DNA of 64,000 bases from assembly GCF_029094505.1 (NCBI RefSeq), contig NZ_CP119108.1, forward strand, positions 992,001-1,056,000. Direction: 5' to 3'. This document shows, one piece after another, positions 7,510 to 38,416 of this stretch. The position numbers and the translations under genes were made by a program. Within the stretch, counting starts at the first letter, position 1, and each line of letters begins with the position of its first letter. This stretch comes from Microbacterium horticulturae (GTDB taxonomy: Bacteria > Actinomycetota > Actinomycetes > Actinomycetales > Microbacteriaceae). Below the pieces are notes generated by a model, which was not told the origin of the DNA, did not search any database, and worked only from the letters and a program-made list of their open reading frames with translations.

Positions 7510-8016
7510 ATGACCGCCGCGATCCGCATCCGCTCTGCACAGGCGCAGGACGCCGCGGCCATGGCGCGCGTGCACGTGGAGACCTGGCGTGAGACGTACC
7601 GCGGGATCATGCGCGACGAGGTCCTCGACCACCCGGGGTTCGTGGCATCCCGCACCCGATTCTGGACGGCTGCGCTCACCGATCCGCACTTCGCGCGCAA
7701 TCGTGCCGCGGTCGCCGAGCTCGACGGCGAGATCATCGGCATTGCGATGTCAGGACCGCCAATGGATGCCGACGCCGACCCCGCGTGGACCGCACAGCTC
7801 TACCTCATCTACGTGTACGCGGCGCATCACGGCACGGGAGCGGGCAGCCGGCTGATCGACGCGGTGCTCCTACCGGATGAACCGGCGTCGCTGTGGGTGG
7901 CCGACCCGAACCCTCGCGCGCAGTCGTTCTACCGCAAGAACGGTTTCGTGGCCGACGGCGCGACGAAGGTCGACGACGGGGTACGCGAGGTTCGGATGGT
8001 GCGGGCAGCACGTTGA
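7510..8016 (+). CDS. GNAT family N-acetyltransferase
   Basis: 168-aa GNAT protein. The fold starts at I-R-I-R-S-A-Q-A-Q-D-A-A-A-M; motif A is Y-A-A-H-H-G-T-G-A-G-S-R-L (residues about 105-117), and the end shows the common A-Q-S-F-Y-R-K-N-G-F segment. The substrate is unknown. TAGTCT at 7498-7503 lies exactly 6 nt before ATG 7510, so the gene is probably leaderless. It follows tRNA-Thr and is convergent with the nitroreductase gene. Confidence 0.88.
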   Translation: MTAAIRIRSAQAQDAAAMARVHVETWRETYRGIMRDEVLDHPGFVASRTRFWTAALTDPHFARNRAAVAELDGEIIGIAMSGPPMDADADPAWTAQLYLIYVYAAHHGTGAGSRLIDAVLLPDEPASLWVADPNPRAQSFYRKNGFVADGATKVDDGVREVRMVRAAR

Positions 8017-8092
8017 GCGGGCTTGGAGACGCGGTATCCCGCGCCCATCGGTCGTGACGGTGAAGCGGTGAGAGCCGCGCGCGGCGCGTCGA

Positions 8093-8635
8093 TCAGCGCG
8101 CCTGCGGCATGCGCGACAGGAAGCGCTCGGGGTCGAGCTTCTTGTGATGGCCCTTGTCTTTGCCGGTGGGCTTGCCGCCCACATACAACCATCCGAGCAG
8201 CTTCTCGTTGTCGCGCAGGCCGTGCACCTTGGCGACGTTCTCATCGCGCGTGTAGTGCCCGGTGCGCCAGAAGACGCCCCAACCCGCCTCATCGAGCAGC
8301 AGGCTCAGCGTGTGTGCGACGCCGGCCGCCGTTGCCGCCTGCTCCCACCGCGGCACCTTCTCGCTCGGACGGTAGCTGACGACGATCGCGACCAGCAGTG
8401 GCGCACGCAACGGCTTGGACGAGATGCCCTTGTCTCCGTTCGCCCTGGCGATGGCCTGCCCCAGCACCTCGCGATCGTCGTCACGCAACTCGATCAGGCG
8501 CCACGGCCGCAGTGACGAGTGGTCGGCCACGCGCCCCGCCGCCGTCACGAGCTCGGCGAGCTCGTCGTGCGAGGGTGCGACGTCCGTCACCTTCGACCAC
8601 GAGCGGCGCGACTGCACCGCTTCGATCGCGCTCAC
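8093..8635 (-). CDS. nitroreductase family protein
   Basis: 180-aa flavin-dependent nitroreductase-like protein. The FMN-site arginine segment S-R-R-S-W-S is at residues 9-14, the family helix D-H-S-S-L-R-P-W-R near 40, and G-W-G-V-F-W-R near 120. The protein is at the short end of the family. The GTG start overlaps the msrB stop by 4 nt (GTGA), so both are made from one transcript. Pairing with methionine sulfoxide reductase suggests a redox-stress role, but the substrate is unknown. Confidence 0.85.
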   Translation of the reverse strand: MSAIEAVQSRRSWSKVTDVAPSHDELAELVTAAGRVADHSSLRPWRLIELRDDDREVLGQAIARANGDKGISSKPLRAPLLVAIVVSYRPSEKVPRWEQAATAAGVAHTLSLLLDEAGWGVFWRTGHYTRDENVAKVHGLRDNEKLLGWLYVGGKPTGKDKGHHKKLDPERFLSRMPQAR

Positions 8636-9039
8636 ACGTCCTCTTCGGGCGTGAACGCCAGAGAGATCGAGTTCATGCAGTAGCGATCGCCGGTCGGCGT
8701 GCCGAAACCGTCGGGGAACACGTGGCCCAGGTGCGACCCGCAGGCCGCACACCGCACCTCCGTGCGCTCCATACCCAGCGTGTGGTCCTCGAGAAGCTGG
8801 ACGGCATCGGGGCGCACCGACTCGTAGAAGCTCGGCCACCCGCAGTGCGAGTCGAACTTCGTGCCGCTCTGGAACAGCTCCGCGCCGCACGCGGCACACG
8901 TGTAGAGCCCGGCACGGTGCTCGTCGAGCAGCTCGCCCGTCCACGGGCGCTCGGTCGCCGCTGTGCGCAGTACCGCATACTGCGTGTCATCGAGCTCTTC
9001 GCGCCACTGCTCGTCGGTCTTGTTCACGGTGTACGTCAC
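8632..9039 (-). CDS. msrB: peptide-methionine (R)-S-oxide reductase MsrB
   Basis: Repairs methionine-R-sulfoxide in proteins using thioredoxin. The 135-aa protein has the two zinc-binding C-A-A-C pairs, the conserved H-C-G-W-P-S-F, and the catalytic cysteine in R-Y-C-M-N-S. The GTG at 9039 is preferred over the ATG 21 nt upstream because a perfect AGGAGG lies 5 nt before it. It is translationally coupled to the nitroreductase gene downstream. Confidence 0.95.
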   Translation of the reverse strand: MTYTVNKTDEQWREELDDTQYAVLRTAATERPWTGELLDEHRAGLYTCAACGAELFQSGTKFDSHCGWPSFYESVRPDAVQLLEDHTLGMERTEVRCAACGSHLGHVFPDGFGTPTGDRYCMNSISLAFTPEEDV

Positions 9040-28032: not shown

Positions 28033-28530
28033 ATGCGCACACTGGTGCTGAACGCAGGATACGAACCGCTGGCTGTCGTGTCGTTTCGCCGGGCCCTGGT
28101 CCTGGTGATGAACGACAAGGCCACGATCATCGAGCGCGTCGAGGAGAGCCCCGTGCTCGCCGCCGGCGGCGCGTTCGACAGACCCGCGGTGATCATCCTG
28201 ACCCGCTACGTGCACCTGCCCCACCCCGGCCACGTGCCGGTCACCCGGCGCGGCGTGCTGCGCCGTGACGCCTTCCGCTGTGCGTACTGCGGCGGGCACG
28301 CGGCGACGATCGACCACGTGCAGCCGCGCTCGCGCGGTGGGGCCGACAGCTGGGAGAACCTCGTCGCGTGCTGTCAGCGCTGCAACAACGTCAAGGGCGA
28401 CCGCACACCGCAGGAGATGTCGTGGCGGCTGCGCTTCGCGCCCCGGCCGCCGCACGGACCCTCATGGGCGATCCGCGGCGCCGACCGTGCAGACCCGCGC
28501 TGGGAGCCGTATCTGGCGCTCGCCGCGTGA
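28033..28530 (+). CDS. HNH endonuclease family protein
   Basis: 165 aa. The N-terminal part (M-R-T-L-V-L-N-A-G-Y-E-P-L) is the conserved start of a widespread actinobacterial and cyanobacterial HNH family. The nuclease domain has C-A-Y-C-G-G, A-T-I-D-H-V-Q-P-R-S-R-G-G, N-L-V-A-C-C-Q-R-C-N: a zinc CxxC...CxxC frame around the His and Asn of the HNH motif. The role of this family is not established; repair or restriction is possible. GAGGAT lies 5 nt before ATG 28033. Confidence 0.9.
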   Translation: MRTLVLNAGYEPLAVVSFRRALVLVMNDKATIIERVEESPVLAAGGAFDRPAVIILTRYVHLPHPGHVPVTRRGVLRRDAFRCAYCGGHAATIDHVQPRSRGGADSWENLVACCQRCNNVKGDRTPQEMSWRLRFAPRPPHGPSWAIRGADRADPRWEPYLALAA

Positions 28531-28638
28531 GGCTGCCGCCGACCTGCGGCCGGCCCGTCTCGGGAGTAGGGTCGCACGTGGCGGATCGATGACGTGAGTT
28601 GCCACCCCCAGGTCGCTCACGGCCGGAGGGAGGCAGGG

Positions 28639-31600
28639 ATGCATCTGACAGTGGTCGGAAGCACGGCGCGCGTGCACGGTGCCGTGCAGGTTCCGAATTC
28701 CAAATACCACGCGCATCGCGCTCTGATCCTGGCGTCGCTGGCTCCCGGCACGAGCCGGATCAGCGGGCTCAGCGACGCCCGGCACGTGCAGTACACGGTC
28801 GGGGTGCTGCGGGCGCTGGGCGTGGACGTCGAGGTCGACGGCGACACCTTCGTGGTCCACGGCGGGCGATACCGGCCGCGCCGCGAGCGGGTGAGCGTGG
28901 GCAGCTCCGGCTCGACGCTCTACTTCATGACGGGGCTGGCAGCCCTCGCTGACCGTGACGTCGTGCTCACGGGGCAGAAGTACTTTCAGCGCCGTCCGAT
29001 CGGTCCGCTGCTGCGCGCGCTGAGCGAGATGGGGGTGGATGCCGCATCCCCCACCGATTGCCCCCCGCTGCGCATTCGGCACGGCCGCCCGGCGGGCGGC
29101 GTCGTGCACATCGCCGGCACCCTGTCGCAGTGGATCTCGGCGCTGCTGCTGGTCGCGCCGTTCGCGCGTGCGCACACCACCGTGATCGTCGACGGGCCGT
29201 TCAACGAGCGCAGCTACGTGGACCTGACCGTGCGCATGATGACGACGTTCGGACTCGACGTGACGGTGTCTCCCGACGGGCGGCGATTCGACATCGCGCC
29301 CGACCAGTCGCCGCACCCTGTCGACCTGACGCTGCCGCCCGACATCGGCTCGGCGGCGTTCGGTCTGGCGGTGGCGGCGCTGCGTCCGGCCGACGTGCTG
29401 CTGACCGGTCTCGACAGCATCGACCCGGTGGTGGTCGACCACCCCGAGGCGGAATTCCTGCGGATCGCCCGCGAGATGGGGCTGCCGATGGTGGTGGATG
29501 CCGCGGCCGGCGGCGTCCGCGTGCAGCATGACGGCCTGCGGCTGCAGCCGGTGGAGGTGGACTGCCGCCTGGTGCCCGACATGCTGCCGATCCTGTCGGC
29601 GATGGCGGCCGTCGCCGACGGCGAGAGCGTCTTCCACGACGTCGAGCACGTGCGGCTGAAGGAGTCGGACCGGGTCACCTCGATGCTGCAGCTGAACGCC
29701 ATGGGCGGCGACGTCGACTTCGACGGCACCGACCTGCGTGTGCGCGGCGTGTCGCGTCTGCGGGGGGAGCACCTGTCGTCCTTCAACGACCACCGGGTGC
29801 TCATGTCGCTGGCGGTGGCGGCCTCGGCCGCCTCCGGGCGCTCGACGCTCACCTTTCCGAATGCCTATCGCATCTCGTACCCGCAGTTCCTCGACGCGAT
29901 GACCGAGCTGCACGCCGACATGCAGATCGAGAAGGGGCCGGCCCGCCCGACGGCGCGGCGGCGTCCGCCCGCGGGCACGGCGGACCAGGCCGCGCAGGTG
30001 ACCGGTGCCGAATGGATCCGGCGGTGGGCACAAGAGCGTCCGTACGGGCTGGCACTGGTGGATGCCGCGCCCGACCGCACCGGACGGATGACCTGGTCGG
30101 AGCTCGACCAGTCCGTCGACAAGGCCGCCGCGCTCTTCCTCGAGCTCGGCGTTGAGCCGGGCGACCGGGTCGCCGTTCAGCTGCCGAACTGCGCGGGTTT
30201 CGTCGTGATCGCCGCCGCGGCGGCGCGCATCGGGGCGGTGATCTGCCCGATCATGCCGATCTTCCGCGAGCGCGAGGTCGCCTTCGCGCTGAAGCGCTCG
30301 CGGGCGAAGCTCGTCGTGGTCGCCGACAACTTCCGCGGACGGCAGCACGATCACGAGCTGGCCGACATCCTCGCCGGGCCCGCGGCATCCGACCTCTCCG
30401 TCACCGATGTGCTGGTGATGCATCTGACCCCCGGGGTCGCGCATGTGCTGCCGCCGTGCGAGAACCCCGACGTGCGCTGGTACGCGTGGCATCGGGCCTC
30501 GGCCTGGGCGAAGGCCGACCGCGCGGTGCTCGACGCGCGCACGCCGCGGCCGGACGACGACGCACAGCTGCTGTTCACCTCGGGCACCTCCGGCGAGCCG
30601 AAGGGAGTGCTGCACACGCATGCGAGCCTGAGCCGAGCGGCGTGGATGGAGATCGAGCAGCTGCCGCTGAACTCGACCGACAGCGTGTACATCCCGTCGC
30701 CGCTCGCCCACCAGACCGGGTTCCTCTACGGTATGTGGCTGGCGTGGGCGCTCGGAGTCCCGGCCATCGTGCAGCGGGCCTGGAACGGACGCCGCGCACT
30801 CGAAGTGCTCGAGGAGTGGGAGGGCACCTTCGTGCAGGCCGCCACGCCGTTCCTCACCGATCTGGTTCGCGAGGTGGAGGCGGGAGCGCCCCGGCCTCGC
30901 GCGCTGCGGATCTTCGTCGCCACCGGCGCGGCGGTGCCACGAGCGCTCGCCGAGCGTGCGACTCGGGTGCTGGGCGCCGCGGTATGCGGAGCATTCGGCA
31001 CCACCGAGACGGGGCTTGCCGCGCTGTCGACGCCGGGCGACCCGGCCGGCAAGGCCTGGGGCACCGACGGCCGGGCGCTTCGCGATGTGCAGCTGCGGAT
31101 CGTCGACGACGAGGGGCGCCCGGTCTCGCCCGGTGCCGAGGGCAACTTCGAACTGTCGGGGCCGACCGTGTTCCGCGGTTACCTCGACCGGCCCGATCTG
31201 AGCGCCGAGGCGTTCGCCGCCGACGGTTGGTACCGCACGGGCGACCTCGCCCGTATCGACGACGACGGGTATCTGCGCATCACCGGCCGTGTGCGCGACG
31301 TCATCAACCGCGGCGGTGAGAAGGTGCCGGTCTCGGAGATCGAGCAGCTTCTCTACCGGCACGAAGCCGTCGACGATGTTGCGATCGTGGCGATGCCCGA
31401 CGAGCGGCTGGGCGAGCGGGCGTGCGCGTTCGTCGTGCTCGCCGCCGGGCACCGGCTCTCGTTCACCCGGATGCAGCAGTACCTCGATGAGAACAGGGTC
31501 TCCAAGAGCTACTGGCCCGAGCGTCTCGAGGTCGTCGACGAGCTGCCCCGCAATGCCGTCGGCAAGGTACAGAAGTTCCTGCTGCGCGAGCAGGCGGCGA

Positions 31601-31713
31601 CTCTCAAGCCCCAGCGCTTGAAGACCCTGACAGACACCGACAAGGAGGGCCCCCTCGATGACCAGCATCCCGGTCACGACCGACGGACGTGGAAGCCGAA
31701 TAGAACAGCCTGA
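28639..31713 (+). CDS. fusion: EPSP-synthase-like domain + acyl-CoA ligase (cyclohexanecarboxyl-CoA pathway candidate)
   Basis: 1024 aa in one uninterrupted frame; GGAGGGAGG precedes ATG 28639. Residues 1-430 are an EPSP synthase fold: S21-K22, R27, S89-S-G-S-T93, R119-P-I, S163-Q164, D314, K341-E342-S-D-R345, D384-H385-R386. Changes from true EPSPS: Y23 for Ser23, Y95 for Arg100, I412 for Lys411. A basic, Pro/Ala-rich linker (about 430-450) leads to an adenylate-forming ligase with A3 T647-S-G-T-S-G-E-P-K-G656, T-T-E-T-G, Y865-R-T-G-D and catalytic K976. Known shikimate-to-cyclohexanecarboxyl-CoA clusters encode these as separate proteins; fusion suggests channelling. The 3' end overlaps the next gene by 56 nt. 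Confidence 0.88.
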   Translation: MHLTVVGSTARVHGAVQVPNSKYHAHRALILASLAPGTSRISGLSDARHVQYTVGVLRALGVDVEVDGDTFVVHGGRYRPRRERVSVGSSGSTLYFMTGLAALADRDVVLTGQKYFQRRPIGPLLRALSEMGVDAASPTDCPPLRIRHGRPAGGVVHIAGTLSQWISALLLVAPFARAHTTVIVDGPFNERSYVDLTVRMMTTFGLDVTVSPDGRRFDIAPDQSPHPVDLTLPPDIGSAAFGLAVAALRPADVLLTGLDSIDPVVVDHPEAEFLRIAREMGLPMVVDAAAGGVRVQHDGLRLQPVEVDCRLVPDMLPILSAMAAVADGESVFHDVEHVRLKESDRVTSMLQLNAMGGDVDFDGTDLRVRGVSRLRGEHLSSFNDHRVLMSLAVAASAASGRSTLTFPNAYRISYPQFLDAMTELHADMQIEKGPARPTARRRPPAGTADQAAQVTGAEWIRRWAQERPYGLALVDAAPDRTGRMTWSELDQSVDKAAALFLELGVEPGDRVAVQLPNCAGFVVIAAAAARIGAVICPIMPIFREREVAFALKRSRAKLVVVADNFRGRQHDHELADILAGPAASDLSVTDVLVMHLTPGVAHVLPPCENPDVRWYAWHRASAWAKADRAVLDARTPRPDDDAQLLFTSGTSGEPKGVLHTHASLSRAAWMEIEQLPLNSTDSVYIPSPLAHQTGFLYGMWLAWALGVPAIVQRAWNGRRALEVLEEWEGTFVQAATPFLTDLVREVEAGAPRPRALRIFVATGAAVPRALAERATRVLGAAVCGAFGTTETGLAALSTPGDPAGKAWGTDGRALRDVQLRIVDDEGRPVSPGAEGNFELSGPTVFRGYLDRPDLSAEAFAADGWYRTGDLARIDDDGYLRITGRVRDVINRGGEKVPVSEIEQLLYRHEAVDDVAIVAMPDERLGERACAFVVLAAGHRLSFTRMQQYLDENRVSKSYWPERLEVVDELPRNAVGKVQKFLLREQAATLKPQRLKTLTDTDKEGPLDDQHPGHDRRTWKPNRTA

Positions 31714-32854
31714 ATACGACGCCGTCCTCGACGAGGTCACCCGGTGGGTGCAGGACCCCGGCGAGGAGTGGGCGGAGCGGATCGAAGAGACCGGGACTGT
31801 ACCGCGTGAGCTGTTCGACGAGCTGAAGCAGCGCGGCTACCTGAGTATGGCGGCGCCCCGCGACCTCGGTGGGCGCGGGCTGGCGTTCAGCCAGTGGATG
31901 GGCCTCATGGAGGTCTTCTCACGCTCGCACGCCTCGATCCGGATGCTGGTGCACGTTCTCAACGGCACCTGGCGTGCTATCAACCCGCACGTGACCGAGG
32001 CGCAGCGCGAGAAGTTCGTGAAGCCGATGATCGCCGGCGAGCTGCTCGTCGCTTTCACCCTCACCGAGCCGGGCAACGGCACCGGCGCCGACATCACCAG
32101 CACCGTGCGGCGCGAGGGCGACACCTATCTGCTGAACGGCCGCAAGCATCTCATCACGTTCGGTGTGAACTGCGACTACTGGCTGCTGTTCGCGCGGCTC
32201 GAAGGCACCTCCGGCAAGGAGGGCACCGTGGCGCTGCTCGTCGACCGGCACGCGCCGGGCGTCGAGGTCGAAGACACCTCGCAGACCATGGGGGTGCACG
32301 GCACCGACCATGCGAGCCTGACCTTCACCGACACCCCGGTGCCGGTCGCGCAGCGCCTGGGAGAAGAGGGCGACGGGCTCGCCATCGCCCTGGGCGGATT
32401 CCTCACTCCGAGCCGCATCTCGGTGGCGATGAGCTGCGTGGGCCTGGCCGAGCGGGCGCAGGAGCTTGCCGTCGACTACGCCACCGGCCGAGTGACCTTC
32501 GGCAAGCCCATCGCGTCGCGGCAGGCCGTCGCGTTCATGATCGCCGAGAACGAGGCCGACATCCAGGCCGCCAAGCAGCTCACCCTGCACGCGGCGCGAC
32601 GGTGGGAGGAGGGGGCGGATGACGCGCCCGCCCTGTCGTCGATGGCTAAGATGACCGCGGTCGACATGCTCACGCGGGTGACCGACAAGGCGCTGCAGGT
32701 GCACGGGGGCATCGGGTACTGGAAGACGTCGCCGATCGAGCGGGTGTACCGCGACGCCCGGGCCCAGCGCTTCGAGGAGGGCACCAACGAGATCCAGAAG
32801 ACGGTGGTCGCCCGTGACGTGTTCACGCGCGCGGCGCAGAAGGAGAACGCATGA
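31658..32854 (+). CDS. acyl-CoA dehydrogenase (cyclohexanecarboxyl-CoA cluster)
   Basis: 398-aa FAD enzyme. It shows the flavin-binding F-T-L-T-E-P-G-N-G-T-G near residue 130, the C-terminal helices with Q-V-H-G-G-I-G-Y near 348, and the catalytic base E374 in F-E-E-G-T-N-E-I-Q. AAGGAGG lies 9 nt before ATG 31658, which is 56 nt inside the ligase gene. In the inferred pathway such an enzyme adjusts ring unsaturation of a cyclohexenyl-CoA ester; the exact step is not determined. The stop overlaps the SDR start by 4 nt (ATGA). Confidence 0.93.
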   Translation: MTSIPVTTDGRGSRIEQPEYDAVLDEVTRWVQDPGEEWAERIEETGTVPRELFDELKQRGYLSMAAPRDLGGRGLAFSQWMGLMEVFSRSHASIRMLVHVLNGTWRAINPHVTEAQREKFVKPMIAGELLVAFTLTEPGNGTGADITSTVRREGDTYLLNGRKHLITFGVNCDYWLLFARLEGTSGKEGTVALLVDRHAPGVEVEDTSQTMGVHGTDHASLTFTDTPVPVAQRLGEEGDGLAIALGGFLTPSRISVAMSCVGLAERAQELAVDYATGRVTFGKPIASRQAVAFMIAENEADIQAAKQLTLHAARRWEEGADDAPALSSMAKMTAVDMLTRVTDKALQVHGGIGYWKTSPIERVYRDARAQRFEEGTNEIQKTVVARDVFTRAAQKENA

Positions 32855-33693
32855 GCACGCCCGAGACCGAAGATGCGGGGGAGTACGAGGGGCGCATCGC
32901 GCTGATCACCGGGTCGTCGCGCGGCATCGGCCGTACCCTCGCCCTCGACCTGGCGGGCAAGGGAGCGTCGGTGGTGGTCAACTACCGCACGAACGCCGAT
33001 CTCGCCGAGCAGGTCGTGACCGAGGCGCGGCGTCGCGGCGGCGACGGCATCGCCGTGCAGGCCGACATGGAGAGCCCCGAAGACATCGTGCGCCTCTTCG
33101 ACGCGACGGCCGAGAAGTACGGCCGGCTCGACTTCTTCGTCAACAACGCGGCCGCCGCGGCGTTCAAGCGGGTCGCCGACCTGAAGACGCACCATCTCGA
33201 CCGCTCGTACGCGATGAACGTGCGGCCGTTCGTGCTCGGCGCGCAGGAGGCCGTCAAGCTCATGGATCGCGGCGGCCGAATCGTCGCCGTCTCCAGCTAC
33301 GGCAGCATGCGGGCGTTCGCAACCTATGCGGCGCTGGGCTCGTACAAGGCAGCAGTCGAGTCGTTCATCCGGTTCATGGCCGTCGAGTTCGCCGGGTACG
33401 GCATCACGGTGAACGGTGTGAACGGAGGCCTGATCGACTCCGACTCGCTCGACTACTTCTATTCGATGCCGGGAATGGCGCCGATGCAGAAGGTCATCGA
33501 CGCTATCCCGCTGGGCCGGCCCGGAACCGTCGAAGACATGGCGAACGCGATCGACTTCCTCCTCTCCGATCGCGCCGGCTACATCACCGGCCACACGATC
33601 GTCGTGGACGGCGGGATGACGGTGGCCGCGCCCCCGTACTGGCACGACACGACGGAGCCGCTCGGGCTGCCGCCGCGTCCCGTGCGGGACTGA
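32851..33693 (+). CDS. SDR enoyl-CoA reductase, ChcA-like (1-cyclohexenylcarbonyl-CoA reductase candidate)
   Basis: 280-aa short-chain dehydrogenase fold protein: nucleotide loop T-G-S-S-R-G-I-G at residues 20-27, N-N-A-A-A-A-A near 98, C-terminal I-T-G-H-T-I-V-V-D-G-G. The active-site pair is Y159-x6-K166, the spacing of enoyl reductases (FabI/FabL and ChcA), not the Y-x3-K of ketoreductases. The length equals that reported for ChcA. Within this operon it is the natural candidate for reducing the cyclohexenyl-CoA intermediates. Function by homology and context only. Confidence 0.85.
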   Translation: MSTPETEDAGEYEGRIALITGSSRGIGRTLALDLAGKGASVVVNYRTNADLAEQVVTEARRRGGDGIAVQADMESPEDIVRLFDATAEKYGRLDFFVNNAAAAAFKRVADLKTHHLDRSYAMNVRPFVLGAQEAVKLMDRGGRIVAVSSYGSMRAFATYAALGSYKAAVESFIRFMAVEFAGYGITVNGVNGGLIDSDSLDYFYSMPGMAPMQKVIDAIPLGRPGTVEDMANAIDFLLSDRAGYITGHTIVVDGGMTVAAPPYWHDTTEPLGLPPRPVRD

Positions 33694-33700
33694 CCGGGCC

Positions 33701-35734
33701 GTGGCATCCACCCCTCTTCCGTCCACGTCGCGGGCGGAGGCGCCGCGCTATCCGTCGGTGCGCAGGCCGGTGCGCATCGGCACGTTGACGCTGCCGCACC
33801 GCATCGTGATGGGGTCGATGCACCTGAACCGTGAGACCGGCGACCCCGACGCGCTCGCCGCGTTCTATGCGGAGCGCGCGGCCGGCGGGGCCGCCCTCAT
33901 CGTCACGGGCGGCGCCGCGGTCAGCCGGGTGGGCGCCGGTGGTGCGGGCTACGGGATCATCACCGAGCCGGCGCATGCTGCTCCCTGGCGGACGGTGGTG
34001 GATGCCGTGCACAGCGCCGGCGGACGCATCGCGCTGCAGCTGTTCCATGCGGGGCGCTACGCGTCCCCCGCGGCGTTCGGGCTCACGCCGGTGGCGCCGT
34101 CGGCCGTGTACAGCCGGTTCTCGGATGCGACTCCTGCGGCGCTCGACGAAGGGGGGATCGCCGCGACGATCGATGACTTCGCGCGGGCTGCCGTCGTGGC
34201 GCGCGAGCTGGGGTTCGACGGCGTCGAGATCATGGCGTCGGAGGGCTACCTTCTCAACCAGTTCGCGTCGCCGGTGACGAACCTGCGCGATGACGCGTGG
34301 GGAGGGGATGCCGCGCGGCGTCGGGCTTTTCCGGTCGCGGTGACCCGCGCCGTGCGCGACGCGGTCGGCGATGCGCCGGTGATCGTGCGCATGTCGGGCG
34401 CCGACCTGGTCGAGGGGTCGTCGACGCCCGACGAGGTCGACGCGCTGGCGGTCGCTCTCGTGCGGGCCGGTGCCGATGCTATCGACGTGGGCATCGGCTG
34501 GCACGAGGCCCGAGTGCCTACCGTGCAGTCGATGGTGCCGCATGGGGCGTTCACGCCGGTTGCGGGGCGGATCCGGGCGGCGTTGGCTTCGGCGCCGGTG
34601 CCCGTCATCGCCTCGAACCGCATCAACACGCTCGCGCAGGCCGAGCAGGTGCTCACGGCGGGTGAGGCCGACATCGTGTCGATGGCGCGGCCGTTCCTGG
34701 CCGATCCGCACATCGTCGCGGCATCGTTCGCCGGCCGTGAGGCGGCCGTGACGCTGTGCATCGGGTGCAACGAGGCCTGCATCGACCGGTCGCTGGGCAC
34801 CGAGCCCGTTTCGTGCACGGTCAACCCGCGGGCGGGGCGGGAGCTGGAGTTTCCGTTGGTGGCGGCATCCCGCCCCTCTGCACGTCGCGTCGCGGTCGTC
34901 GGTGCGGGCCCCGCGGGCATGGAAGCGGCTCGCGCCGCCACGTTCGCCGGTGCGCAGGTGACGCTGTTCGAAGAGGCTGCCGAGATCGGCGGTCAGTTCC
35001 TGCTGGCGGGTGCCGTTCCCGGCAAGGGGGATTTCGCCGCCCTCGCCCGATCGTTCACGCACGTGCTCGACGAGACGGGCGTCGGGGTGCGCACGGGGTG
35101 TGCGGCGGGGCCGGAGGACGTCGTGGGGTTCGACCATGTGATCGTGGCCACCGGCGTCGTGCCGCGCCGGGTCGAGCTGCCGGGCGTCGAGCGGGCGCTC
35201 GATTATGCGCAGGCCTTCGCCGACCTGTCGCGCGTGGGGGAGCGGGTCGTGGTGATCGGCGCGGGCGGGATCGCCGTGGACCTCGCACACCTGCTCGTGG
35301 AGGGTGAGGATGCTTCGTCGTTCTTGGTCGAGCATGGTCTGCGGGACGGGATGCTGCCGCCGCCGCGCCGCCAGGTCACGATCATGCGTCGGCACGGGCC
35401 GATCGGCGCCGGCATGGGGCTGACGACGCGGTGGGCGGCTGTGCAGGCGATCCGGCGGCGCGGGGTGCGCACGCTCACGGGGGTCGAGTATCGGGCGGTG
35501 GAAGCCGGTGGCGTGCGCATCGCGGTGGACGGCGTCGAAGAGCTGGTTGAAGCCGACACGGTCATCGTTGCGGCGGGGCAGACGCCGCGCTCCGCGCTCG
35601 CCGCGGAGCTCTCGGCCCGCGGCATTCCGCACACGGTCGTCGGCGGCGCGCGGAACACCTCGGGCCTGAACGCGGTGGCCGCCTTCGAGGAAGGCCTGCG
35701 GGCGGGGGATGCCGCGGCCCGCGCCGCGCGCTGA
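33701..35734 (+). CDS. FadH-type 2,4-dienoyl-CoA reductase / old yellow enzyme flavoprotein
   Basis: 677 aa. Residues 25-345 are an FMN-binding OYE barrel (R-I-V-M-G-S-M-H-L-N; M-A-R-P-F-L-A-D-P). Cysteines C353, C356, C360 and C372 (C-x2-C-x3-C-x11-C) bind a 4Fe-4S cluster. The rest is an FAD/NAD(P) module with V-V-G-A-G-P-A-G-M-E near 400 and V-V-I-G-A-G-G-I near 520. This is the full FadH domain order. In the proposed pathway it would reduce a conjugated dienyl carboxyl-CoA. GTG 33701 is 7 nt past the SDR stop; the RBS is weak, suggesting coupled translation. Confidence 0.88.
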   Translation: MASTPLPSTSRAEAPRYPSVRRPVRIGTLTLPHRIVMGSMHLNRETGDPDALAAFYAERAAGGAALIVTGGAAVSRVGAGGAGYGIITEPAHAAPWRTVVDAVHSAGGRIALQLFHAGRYASPAAFGLTPVAPSAVYSRFSDATPAALDEGGIAATIDDFARAAVVARELGFDGVEIMASEGYLLNQFASPVTNLRDDAWGGDAARRRAFPVAVTRAVRDAVGDAPVIVRMSGADLVEGSSTPDEVDALAVALVRAGADAIDVGIGWHEARVPTVQSMVPHGAFTPVAGRIRAALASAPVPVIASNRINTLAQAEQVLTAGEADIVSMARPFLADPHIVAASFAGREAAVTLCIGCNEACIDRSLGTEPVSCTVNPRAGRELEFPLVAASRPSARRVAVVGAGPAGMEAARAATFAGAQVTLFEEAAEIGGQFLLAGAVPGKGDFAALARSFTHVLDETGVGVRTGCAAGPEDVVGFDHVIVATGVVPRRVELPGVERALDYAQAFADLSRVGERVVVIGAGGIAVDLAHLLVEGEDASSFLVEHGLRDGMLPPPRRQVTIMRRHGPIGAGMGLTTRWAAVQAIRRRGVRTLTGVEYRAVEAGGVRIAVDGVEELVEADTVIVAAGQTPRSALAAELSARGIPHTVVGGARNTSGLNAVAAFEEGLRAGDAAARAAR

Positions 35735-35820
35735 GGGGCGCGCGTCGAGCTCTGCGCTGAGGTCGCTGAGGTCACGGTGTCGCGGTGTCGCTGAGCTTGT
35801 GGCATCCCCGCTCCGCACAT

Positions 35821-35905
35821 CTGTCGCGTGGTCATATCTGTCGCGTGGTCGTATCTGTCGCGTGGTCGTATCTGTCGCGTGGTCGTAACTGTCGCGTCCT
35901 CATCT
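35821..35905. repeat. 17-bp tandem repeat, five copies (locus 3)
   Basis: Units of CTGTCGCGTGGTCGTAT start at 35821, 35838, 35855 and 35872, with a degenerate fifth at 35889. The core is the reverse complement of a variant of the 20-bp repeats at 379 and 19344. It lies in the 451-bp gap after the FadH-like gene, which holds no gene; a GCGCGC hairpin around the FadH stop (35725-35742) may aid termination. Confidence 0.85.
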
Positions 35906-35928
35906 CAGTCGCGCGGAATCAGGTGTTT

Positions 35929-35974
35929 TCGCGAGATCAGGTGGATCGGGGGGCGAATCGTCCTGATCTCGCGA
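35929..35974. repeat. 13-bp perfect inverted repeat
   Basis: TCGCGAGATCAGG (35929-35941) and its exact reverse complement (35962-35974), 20 nt apart. The arm shares 13 bases with the tandem repeat unit at 19344, so it belongs to the same family. The following 36000-36138 shows only GTGCGGGCG-type short repeats and no ORF. Confidence 0.8.
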
Positions 35975-36138
35975 GGTCAGGTGTTCTCGTGCGGGCGGTG
36001 CGTGCGGGCGAATGCGGGGTGGTACGTGCGGGGCGGCAGCGTGTAGCGGGATGCCGCGAAGAGCGCCCGACTGTCGAACATAGCCCACGGATAGCGAGAT
36101 TTCGGATGTCGGAGGAGGTGTCTATCGTCGTTCCTACA

Positions 36139-36167
36139 TTGACCAGATAGAACATGCGTTCTAGGAT
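36139..36167 (+). promoter_or_regulatory. promoter of the imuA'-imuB-dnaE2 operon
   Basis: TTGACC (36139-36144), 17-bp spacer, TAGGAT (36162-36167), with transcription expected about 10 nt before ATG 36186. Confidence 0.75.
36148..36163 (+). promoter_or_regulatory. LexA box (SOS operator)
   Basis: TAGAACATGCGTTCTA: 6-bp perfect arms with the GAAC-N4-GTTC core of actinobacterial SOS boxes. It covers the spacer and the first bases of the -10, so LexA would block RNA polymerase. Confidence 0.93.
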
Positions 36168-36185
36168 GAGGAAGTGGGGGCGATC

Positions 36186-36863
36186 ATGTCGGCAGGTGCT
36201 GCGACAGCGCAGGAGATCTCGCTCCTGCGCGCGCAACTCGAGCGGGTGCAGGGCCGCCGGCTCGGCGCCGCGGTGCTGCCCACGCTGCCGAGTCTCGCAT
36301 CCCTGCTGCCCGGCGGTGGTCTGCGGGCAGGTGCCGCGTACACGGTGGCGCCGTCGGCCTCGCTGCTGTTGGCGCTGCTGGCACGGCCCTCGCAAGAGGG
36401 CTCCTGGTGCGGAGTGGTCGGGATGCCCGAGCTCGGCGCCGAGGCGGCCGAGCAGCTCGGGGTCGATCTCTCGCGGGTCGTGCTCATCCCCGATCCGGGT
36501 GCGCGCTGGCTCGCGGTCACGGCGACCGTCGCCGACGTGCTGCCGGTGGTCGCGGTGCGTCCGGGCGGGCGGGTGACTCCGGGTGACGTGGCGCGGCTGT
36601 CGGCGCGGCTGCGCGATCGCGGCGGCGTGCTGCTTGTACAGGGGGTGTGGCCTCAGGCCGAGGCATCCATCGCCGTCGACGCCTCGGAGTGGACGGGTGT
36701 GGGCGACGGACACGGCTTTCTGCAGCGGCGCGTGCTGACCGTCAGCGTGACGAGCAGACGCCAGGCGGTGCCGCGGCGCGCCCGGCTGGTGCTGCCCGAT
36801 GAAACCGGCGGGTTGTCGGCGGCACCGGCGCCGGCGCTCGTCCCGATGCGGGCGGTGGGCTGA
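36186..36863 (+). CDS. imuA': ImuA' (RecA-like mutasome accessory protein)
   Basis: 225-aa protein at the head of the SOS mutagenesis operon. It shows the weak RecA-like fold of actinobacterial ImuA' proteins (L-P-S-L-A-S-L-L-P-G-G-G-L-R near residue 32), without a complete Walker A lysine motif. In mycobacteria ImuA' and ImuB are required for DnaE2-dependent mutagenesis. ATG 36186 is chosen over the GTG 12 nt upstream because of the promoter distance. Overlaps imuB by one base (TGATG). Confidence 0.85.
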   Translation: MSAGAATAQEISLLRAQLERVQGRRLGAAVLPTLPSLASLLPGGGLRAGAAYTVAPSASLLLALLARPSQEGSWCGVVGMPELGAEAAEQLGVDLSRVVLIPDPGARWLAVTATVADVLPVVAVRPGGRVTPGDVARLSARLRDRGGVLLVQGVWPQAEASIAVDASEWTGVGDGHGFLQRRVLTVSVTSRRQAVPRRARLVLPDETGGLSAAPAPALVPMRAVG

Positions 36864-38416
36864 TGAGTCCGGTGCGCAGCCTGGTGCTGTGGTTTCCCGA
36901 CTGGCCGGTGACGGCGCTGCACCGGCAGCGGGGAATGGAGGGAGTGGATGCCGCGCCCCTGGCCATCGTGCACGCGAACACCGTGATCGCCTGCTCGGCG
37001 GGGGCTCGCGCCGAGGGCGTACGCCGGGGGCAGCGGCGGCGTGATGCGCAGGGGCGCTGTCCGCGCCTGGAGATCGTGCCGGATGATGCCGATCGCGATG
37101 CGCGGATGTTCTCGCCGGTGGTCTCGCGCATCGAGCAGCTCGCGCCCGGAGTGCAGATCATCCGCCCGGGGCTGTGCGCGCTGCGGGCACAGGGGCCCGC
37201 CCGCTTCTACGGGGGAGAGAACGAGGCCGCCTGCGAGATCCTCGACGTGCTCGCCGAGAGCGAGGAGCTGCCCGGGGTGCGTGCCGCCGTCGCCGATGGA
37301 CCGTTCACCGCCGAGCAGGCGGCGCGCACCACGACCGCCGACCGCCCCGTGCGCATCGTGCCCCAGAGGGCCGCGGCCTCCTTTCTCGCACCGCTGCCGG
37401 TGGCGACGCTGCAAGACGACGCGCTGGCCCACCTGCTCAGCCGTCTCGGTGTGCACACGCTGGGGTCGTTCGCAGCCCTCGACGCCGGCCTCGTGCGCGA
37501 CCGGTTCGGGCCGGCCGGCCAGCGGCTGCACGAGCTGGCGGGCGGCGCCGACTCGCGGCCGGTGCAGCCGCGCACGCCACCGCCCGAGCTTGACCGCGAG
37601 GTCGCGTTCGAGCCCGCCGTCGAGGCCGCCGAACAGGTCGCGTTCGGCATGCGCATCGCCGCCGACGAGTTCATCGCGGGGCTGGGCGCTGTCGACCTCG
37701 TGTGCACCGAGCTGCGCGTCGAGCTGACCGGCGATCGCGGCGAGCGCAGCGAGCGGGTGTGGCTGCACCCGCGCTCGTTCGATGCGGCCGCCGTCATCGA
37801 CCGGGTGCGCTGGCAGCTGGCCGAAGACGCGCAGAACCGGGTGCTGCGCAGCGGGGTGACGCTCGTGCGGCTTCATCCCGAAGCGGTGGATGCTGCATCC
37901 GCCCACCAACCGGCTGTTTTCGGCTCCGGCCCCGACGAGCGCGTGCACCACGCGCTCTCGCGCGTGCAGGCGATGCTCGGGCACCGCGGTGTGCTGACCC
38001 CGGCGGTGGGCGGCGGCCGGTGGCTGACCGAGCGGCAGGTGCTCGTGCCATGGGGCGATCGCGGCGAGCGTGCCGCGTCGACCGAGCGCGCCCGCCCCTG
38101 GCCAGGGAGCCTGCCGGCCCCCGCGCCGGCGACGGTGTTCCCGCAGCCGCAGCCGGTCGACGTCGTCTCGCAGGCAGGCCTGGTCGTCGAGGTCGACGAC
38201 CGCGGAGAGCTCAGCGCGCCGCCCGCACGGCTGACCGAGGCCGGCCGGCGGCGCGAGATTGTGTCGTGGGCCGGCCCCTGGACGATCGACGAGCGGGGGT
38301 GGGATGCCGCGCGCGCCCGGCATGCGCACCGGTTCCAGGTCGTGGATGCCGAGCAGAACGCCTGGCTGCTCGTGTGCGAGGGCGGCCGCTGGGCGGCGGA
38401 GGCGCGGTATGACTAG
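36863..38416 (+). CDS. imuB: ImuB, non-catalytic Y-family polymerase homologue
   Basis: 517 aa. A DinB-like fold starting L-V-L-W-F-P-D-W-P-V, with thumb helix-hairpin-helix L-S-R-L-G-V-H-T-L-G-S-F near residue 190 and a little-finger domain, followed by a tail that in mycobacteria binds the beta clamp and partners. The S-I-D-E catalytic segment is replaced by L-C-A-L-R-A, so no polymerase activity is expected, as for all ImuB proteins. It acts as the scaffold joining DnaE2 to the clamp. Confidence 0.92.
   Translation: MSPVRSLVLWFPDWPVTALHRQRGMEGVDAAPLAIVHANTVIACSAGARAEGVRRGQRRRDAQGRCPRLEIVPDDADRDARMFSPVVSRIEQLAPGVQIIRPGLCALRAQGPARFYGGENEAACEILDVLAESEELPGVRAAVADGPFTAEQAARTTTADRPVRIVPQRAAASFLAPLPVATLQDDALAHLLSRLGVHTLGSFAALDAGLVRDRFGPAGQRLHELAGGADSRPVQPRTPPPELDREVAFEPAVEAAEQVAFGMRIAADEFIAGLGAVDLVCTELRVELTGDRGERSERVWLHPRSFDAAAVIDRVRWQLAEDAQNRVLRSGVTLVRLHPEAVDAASAHQPAVFGSGPDERVHHALSRVQAMLGHRGVLTPAVGGGRWLTERQVLVPWGDRGERAASTERARPWPGSLPAPAPATVFPQPQPVDVVSQAGLVVEVDDRGELSAPPARLTEAGRRREIVSWAGPWTIDERGWDAARARHAHRFQVVDAEQNAWLLVCEGGRWAAEARYD

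Follow-up and report, generated by a model that had tools for sequence, protein, structure and literature searches.

A candidate cyclohexanecarboxyl-CoA operon in Microbacterium horticulturae and a second FabH that co-occurs with it

Introduction

What is made by a bacterial operon that joins an EPSP synthase (EPSPS)-like domain to an acyl-CoA ligase, and where does the product go? In the 64,000-nucleotide stretch of Microbacterium horticulturae DNA analysed here (the window; NZ_CP119108.1, positions 992,001 to 1,056,000), four plus-strand open frames, overlapping or nearly abutting, span positions 28639-35734. They encode an EPSPS-like/ligase fusion, an acyl-CoA dehydrogenase, a short-chain dehydrogenase/reductase (SDR) and a flavoenzyme resembling FadH. 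Judged from sequence, this phoslactomycin/ansatrienin-type operon probably makes cyclohexanecarboxyl-CoA, which would prime omega-cyclohexyl C17 and C19 fatty acids through a ketoacyl-ACP synthase III (KAS III).

Omega-cyclohexyl acids serve as markers of thermoacidophilic bacilli. They are reported in Curtobacterium pusillum (PMC3426160, PMC5023266) and also in Alicyclobacillus, Sulfobacillus and Propionibacterium cyclohexanicum (PMC3426160, PMC5023266, PMC4378227). For Sulfobacillus, genes for omega-alicyclic acids are said to have been identified, although the excerpt does not name them (PMC4378227), and the excerpted genus description of Herbiconiux gives cyclohexyl-C17:0 as possibly present (PMC10011130). 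A literature search, with most subscription journals outside its reach, returned no paper naming the operon for Microbacterium or tying a second FabH to it. We know of no report of omega-cyclohexyl acids from Microbacterium, Sinomonas, Solirubrobacterales or Candidatus Eremiobacterota.

Results

Layout and pathway assignment of the operon

The four-gene layout and coordinates of the original prediction proved exact, with open frames and Pfam domains in agreement (Table 1). The fusion and dehydrogenase genes overlap by 56 nt, the dehydrogenase and SDR genes overlap by 4 nt, and a 7-nt gap separates the SDR and flavoenzyme genes. Within the fusion, Pfam places EPSP_synthase at residues 9-421, AMP-binding at 461-849 and AMP-binding_C at 900-976, with residues 461-976 amounting to a complete acyl-CoA ligase. 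The dehydrogenase has the N, M and C domains of its family, the SDR matches adh_short_C2 and contains the Y-x6-K motif as YAALGSYK, and the flavoenzyme combines Oxidored_FMN with Pyr_redox_2. The best domain E-values for genes 1-4 (1e-75, 1e-40, 1e-58 and 1e-64) are far from chance.

By sequence, the closest solved relatives are EPSP synthases for the EPSPS-like domain (E 1e-49), a salicylate-AMP ligase for the ligase domain, an acyl-CoA dehydrogenase for the dehydrogenase, the enoyl-ACP reductase 3oic for the SDR and the E. coli 2,4-dienoyl-CoA reductase 1ps9 for the flavoenzyme (478 bits), whose CxxCxxxC...C motif aligns with its counterpart in 1ps9. The dehydrogenase carries an EEGTNE motif, with a glutamate at the position of what we take to be the catalytic base of the family. 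Immediately 3' of the operon lies a tandem repeat (35819-35897; 17 bp unit, 4.6 copies, 96% match).

Table 1. Features of the operon and its borders, in window positions
Feature	Position	Strand	Details and basis
EPSPS-like/acyl-CoA ligase fusion, PlmJK type	28639..31713	+	ATG to stop, 1024 aa; Pfam
Acyl-CoA dehydrogenase, PlmL type	31658..32854	+	398 aa; Pfam
SDR enoyl-CoA reductase, ChcA type, FabL-like	32851..33693	+	280 aa; Pfam, named homologues
FMN/FAD/Fe-S 2,4-dienoyl-CoA-reductase-like (FadH-like) enzyme, PlmM type	33701..35734	+	677 aa; Pfam
Shine-Dalgarno-like stretch GGAGGGAGGCAGGG, strong, preceding the fusion ATG	28625..28638	+	Read directly
HNH endonuclease gene, left border of variable slot	28033..28530	+	Pfam, slot comparison
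imuA-like and imuB-like polymerase genes, right border of slot	36174..38416	+	imuB: IMS domain; imuA: position and context, no Pfam match

The shikimate-to-cyclohexanecarboxyl-CoA pathway proposed for this locus is supported by gene content and order of the plm type and by the SDR, which is 64-68% identical to proteins named in databases as 1-cyclohexenylcarbonyl-CoA reductases (e.g. P0339, P0350 and P0351). In the excerpt on the lactomycin cluster, the genes are listed in the order plmJK (AMP-dependent synthetase and ligase), plmL (short-chain-CoA dehydrogenase), ChcA (cyclohexenylcarbonyl-CoA reductase) and plmM (NADH:FMN oxidoreductase), and six genes are ascribed to the cyclohexanecarboxyl-CoA starter (PMC5852498). 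The SDR is also 63% identical to MycA2 of Streptomyces flaveolus, for which a 998-aa fused protein is listed as well, and one SDR among the matches listed bears the name AnsA2. A S. seoulensis locus (L076) keeps the Microbacterium gene order, running from the fusion through dehydrogenase and SDR to the flavoenzyme. By homology, the operon is a complete cyclohexanecarboxyl-CoA set of the PlmJK/PlmL/ChcA/PlmM type.

These family matches could also point to an operon that breaks down cyclohexanecarboxylate or acids resembling shikimate, which we consider highly improbable. The best NCBIfam match of the ligase is cyclohexanecarboxylate-CoA ligase (TIGR03208), and the dehydrogenase matches the cyclohexane-1-carbonyl-CoA and cyclohexanecarboxyl-CoA dehydrogenase models; however, the scores lie far under the family cut-offs (460 of 792, 201 of 650 and 136 of 575 bits, respectively), so that neither enzyme passes a cut-off for degradation of the ali/bad type. 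Two reductases and a fused EPSPS suit degradation poorly, and hydratase and thiolase are absent from the four genes.

The EPSPS-like domain differs from the housekeeping AroA

A canonical aroA elsewhere in the genome (one contig, 3.65 Mb), proposed in the original prediction as a test, was found: a separate AroA exceeds the TIGR01356 cut-off with 359 bits, and MurA is separate too. The operon domain itself also exceeds that cut-off (303.9 against 287.25 bits). Since a second protein passes at 359 bits, we rejected the operon gene as the housekeeping aroA.

Compared with E. coli EPSPS (E. coli numbers), the operon domain retains K22, R27, G96, R124, S170, Q171, Y200 and D313, along with K340, E341, R344, H385 and R386, and is changed by S23Y, N94S, loss of S169, S197E, N336H and K411I. 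These positions presumably form the binding sites for shikimate-3-phosphate and phosphoenolpyruvate. Because the AroA of this genome also differs at 94 (Gln) and 336 (His), the weight rests on S23, S169, S197 and K411. The substituted residues Y23, L162, E190 and I412 are invariant in 13 aligned homologues. We read the EPSPS-like domain as having a substrate site that is changed around the old acid-base core. Such a site could serve a net 1,4-elimination from shikimate instead of enolpyruvyl transfer, a proposal to which we give slightly less than even credence; a modified enolpyruvyl transfer seems rather doubtful. To our knowledge, the first step from shikimate in this pathway has not been demonstrated in the test tube, and the operon domain supplies a defined candidate protein for it.

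Fusion relatives and locus make-up

Scanning 84,980 species genomes gave 248 relatives. We retained 80 as named loci; with 25 loci from Microbacteriaceae these make 105, two genomes being represented twice (L034/L189 and L111/L169 are identical). The fused enzyme that had been singled out in the original prediction is real, although it is no peculiarity: about 100 of the 105 loci are fused overall, and 98 passed an automatic fused-frame test. Among the failures, L170 is nonetheless a single frame of 1010 aa, L055 failed through one in-frame stop that we take to lie beyond the true end of the protein, and L180 has an ambiguous frame layout. Separate EPSPS and ligase genes occur in L166 and L182 and, judged by frame, probably also in L181 and L183. 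A frame artefact was rejected, as at least 120 homologues (59-99% identity, nearly all about 1000 aa) are listed with the same EPSPS, AMP-binding and AMP-binding_C domains. The fusion was found neither on plasmids (at E 1e-100) nor on viral contigs. Unfused EPSPS-domain homologues of 451-460 aa (57-60% identity) occur in Herbiconiux, and for Curtobacterium the matches listed include only a partial homologue (P0235, 56%) from a metagenome-assembled genome (MAG).

The complete collinear four-gene set is present in 78 of the 105 loci. The 80 named loci include 11 in which the SDR alone is missing from the site, seven in which the flavoenzyme alone is missing and eight short of more than one gene; five of the incomplete ones lie near the end of the available stretch. 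The 11 loci with fusion, dehydrogenase and flavoenzyme would suit a pathway that ends before the ring is fully reduced or with a hydroxyl group left on it, as in cyclohexenyl- or hydroxycyclohexyl-CoA. We regard this outcome as very unlikely here, as the Microbacterium operon has all four genes, and SDRs 70% identical to its own are listed for Arthrobacter yangruifuii (on another contig) and Cellulomonas P22 (on a contig of equal length), both of the incomplete-locus types.

In two Streptomyces genomes, S. albus NRRL B-1811 and S. xiaopingdaonensis DUT 180 (L085, L087), an extra copy of the fusion has none of its three partner genes within the stretch analysed, and another contig carries the full set. 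Full operons are also found in Candidatus Eremiobacterota MAGs (L064, L066, L068 and others; several are named palsa or pasture), in several cases with a ketosynthase gene upstream, which would predict ring-capped lipids or polyketides in that phylum.

Ketosynthases and a second FabH

Characterised homologues of the operon feed antibiotics, according to the excerpt on lactomycin (PMC5852498), so cyclohexanecarboxyl-CoA could be made here and routed to a small polyketide, amide or ester. A second KAS II-type ketosynthase gene, which adjoins an AMP-ligase-like open reading frame (ORF) elsewhere in the genome (L135, G000:C1 ~3529 kb), would fit such a product. Of six ketosynthase-family matches in the genome, however, only two extend over the whole domain, their frames being 431 and 419 aa long, and the remaining four span at most 121 of 252 positions; no ketosynthase of polyketide synthase (PKS) size was found by this search, and a modular PKS starter cluster was rejected for that reason. 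The operon is bordered by HNH and imuA-imuB-dnaE2-like genes and by no biosynthetic cluster. Together with the association described next, these observations make a destination outside fatty acids unlikely.

Two FabH (KAS III) proteins in the genome exceed the family cut-off. The second, FabH2 (G000:C1:1269689-1270606), is 42% identical to the first, and in 20 same-genus genomes that lack the operon no second FabH reaches the cut-off. We scored operon and FabH2 in an even sample of 398 Microbacteriaceae genomes, calling the operon by one exact DNA pattern for SKYHAHRA, which misses variants, and FabH2 at 57% identity or more. The operon signature occurs in 40 genomes from 15 of 85 genera, and FabH2 in 21, comprising 19 of the 40 operon-positive against two of the 358 negative genomes (Fisher 1.9e-19; p 0.015 in a genus-stratified exact test over the 16 genera having operon or FabH2). 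FabH2 from 20 of the 21 genomes falls into a clade of its own, distinct from housekeeping FabH (SH-aLRT 98), with that of G113 outside. All four genomes of a Gryllotalpicola group (g75) have both operon and FabH2, and in group g79 three operon-positive genomes have FabH2 and two negatives do not. FabH2 thus emerges as a new candidate partner of the operon and points to fatty-acid priming.

Beyond this sample, FabH2 at 57% or more was found in four of 50 named carriers, namely two Sinomonas, one Lentzea and Gryllotalpicola, the last belonging to Microbacteriaceae; Streptomyces and relatives have many KAS III proteins at 49-55%, a range uninformative on the link. Among the 22 FabH stretches compared, no gene next to FabH2 in this genome has homologues in more than two of the others, and neighbours were common only to small genome groups. 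Of the 80 named loci, 24 have a FabF-like ketosynthase gene within the stretch analysed, mostly adjoining the operon (two members checked), and of 13 family loci examined that lack FabH2, two (G065 and G148) have a ketosynthase at the operon (15-18 kb stretches). The FabH2 association and the operon-linked FabF-like genes point to a role in chain initiation.

FabH2 lies about 4 kb from an ORF judged by translation to be integrase-like (L191:2498-3664 and 7678-8835; G000:C1 ~1264.5-1270.8 kb), and may have arrived on a mobile island.

A variable slot and probable horizontal gain

The nearest named proteins are those of M. protaetiae for the fusion (85%) and Microbacterium sp. KR10-403 for the SDR (96%); M. 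protaetiae, M. terrisoli, M. bovistercoris and M. kribbense have fusions 81-85% identical to it. A search of 57 relatives, 34 of the same genus, with the fusion gave no match above 278 bits against 2313 for the protein itself, and among the matches listed, those from other genomes start within the ligase part, no earlier than residue 428. Of the nine same-genus genomes in the sample of 398, one has the signature, namely this genome itself.

The operon occupies a variable slot between the HNH gene and imuA (28531-36173). The interval from HNH to imuB could be read in 10 of 20 same-genus genomes: in G006, G008, G013, G018 and G031 it measures 849-1322 nt, in which little more than imuA fits, as checked in G006, G018 and G031, and in G007, G010, G012, G015 and G024 it measures 2.3-11.5 kb, the slot of G024 holding unrelated ORFs of, for example, 676 and 869 aa. 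In the other 10, HNH and imuB are far apart or on different contigs, or HNH is unmatched.

In a FastTree phylogeny of 109 fusions, from which the seven loci failing the fused-frame test were left out, the fusion clusters with those of Microbacterium, Paramicrobacterium, Pseudactinotalea, Homoserinimonas and some Micrococcaceae, and two gammaproteobacterial MAG proteins of unverified binning adjoin the Microbacterium group. A separate clade of 20 rows holds Gryllotalpicola together with most of the remaining Microbacteriaceae in the tree; the Gryllotalpicola operon (L111) comes after an ffh-like core gene, as judged by translation. Given the sporadic occurrence in the genus, the variable slot and the grouping with Micrococcaceae, the simplest reading is that this Microbacterium lineage probably gained the operon horizontally.

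The same sporadic occurrence and variable slot would fit a recent acquisition that lies silent and serves no function in this strain. We give this very little credence, as the four frames are open, the fusion motifs are kept across the 13 aligned homologues, the ribosome-binding stretch before the fusion is strong and FabH2 is retained elsewhere.

Upstream of the imuA-imuB-dnaE2-like genes, a palindrome GAACATGCGTTC at 36150-36161 resembles an SOS (LexA) box, on what we take to be the LexA consensus; the pattern GAACNNNNGTTC has one match in the window against 0.63 expected by chance.

Discussion

The genes, their order and homology, the slot and the co-occurrence with FabH2 were observed directly; from them we infer every chemical step of the following route, and its product. 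With the separate aroA serving aromatic amino-acid synthesis, the EPSPS-like domain would be free to take the first ring oxygen off shikimate in a net 1,4-elimination, and the fused ligase would capture the unsaturated acid as its CoA ester. The dehydrogenase, the SDR and the FadH-like flavoenzyme would then strip and saturate the ring, as suggested by their homologues, possibly assisted by an isomerase encoded elsewhere in the genome. The resulting cyclohexanecarboxyl-CoA would prime type II fatty-acid synthesis via KAS III, most likely FabH2. Fatty acids are the likeliest destination because no PKS-sized ketosynthase was found and a second FabH co-occurs.

Several observations weigh against this route. 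None of the seven enoyl-CoA hydratase family matches in the genome, four of which were scanned, was identified as the isomerase ChcB, in a search that compared no ChcB reference. Herbiconiux daphne carries an EPSPS homologue, and the major fatty acids listed for it in the excerpt include no cyclohexyl acid. FabH2 is missing from 21 of the 40 operon-positive family genomes, three of which (G079, G158 and G180) have no good FabH match at all and may be incomplete assemblies, and from the 13 Arthrobacter, Paenarthrobacter and Specibacter carriers searched, where the best match covers only part of the protein at 41-46% identity. Conversely, G313 and G113 have FabH2 without the operon, the absence of which was confirmed by protein search. 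The Fisher value also overstates the case because genomes share ancestry.

More broadly, this type of operon with an unlinked, dedicated FabH2 (in many Microbacteriaceae), and with an EPSPS domain turned to removing the first shikimate hydroxyl, might form the general basis of omega-cyclohexyl acids, a suggestion that we offer only tentatively. It would predict these acids in Microbacterium, Sinomonas, Solirubrobacterales and Candidatus Eremiobacterota, and it supplies a checkable gene set and a candidate starter enzyme for ring-capped lipids in mesophiles, the ring being best known from thermoacidophiles. The distribution of the genes over Actinomycetota, Eremiobacterota and a few gammaproteobacterial MAGs calls for care in using omega-cyclohexyl acids as thermoacidophile markers.

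Comparison with known systems

With canonical AroA, the operon's EPSPS-like domain shares a family and differs in being fused to a ligase. With the omega-cyclohexyl producers, as far as the excerpts on them go, the operon shares the expected product, and with Curtobacterium also the family, a likeness drawn from lipids. The ansatrienin genes, ansJKLM-chcA, provide an antibiotic starter unit; the ansatrienin/mycotrienin-type locus of S. seoulensis has the same gene order as the Microbacterium operon and a fusion about 59% identical, although Streptomyces fusions of this type stand elsewhere in the tree. The phoslactomycin/lactomycin genes plmJK-plmL-chcA-plmM of Streptomyces have the same four functions in the same order, a likeness drawn from the functions listed in the excerpt and not from PlmJK sequence; they sit inside a modular PKS cluster (PMC5852498), whereas the Microbacterium operon stands alone between HNH and imuA genes.

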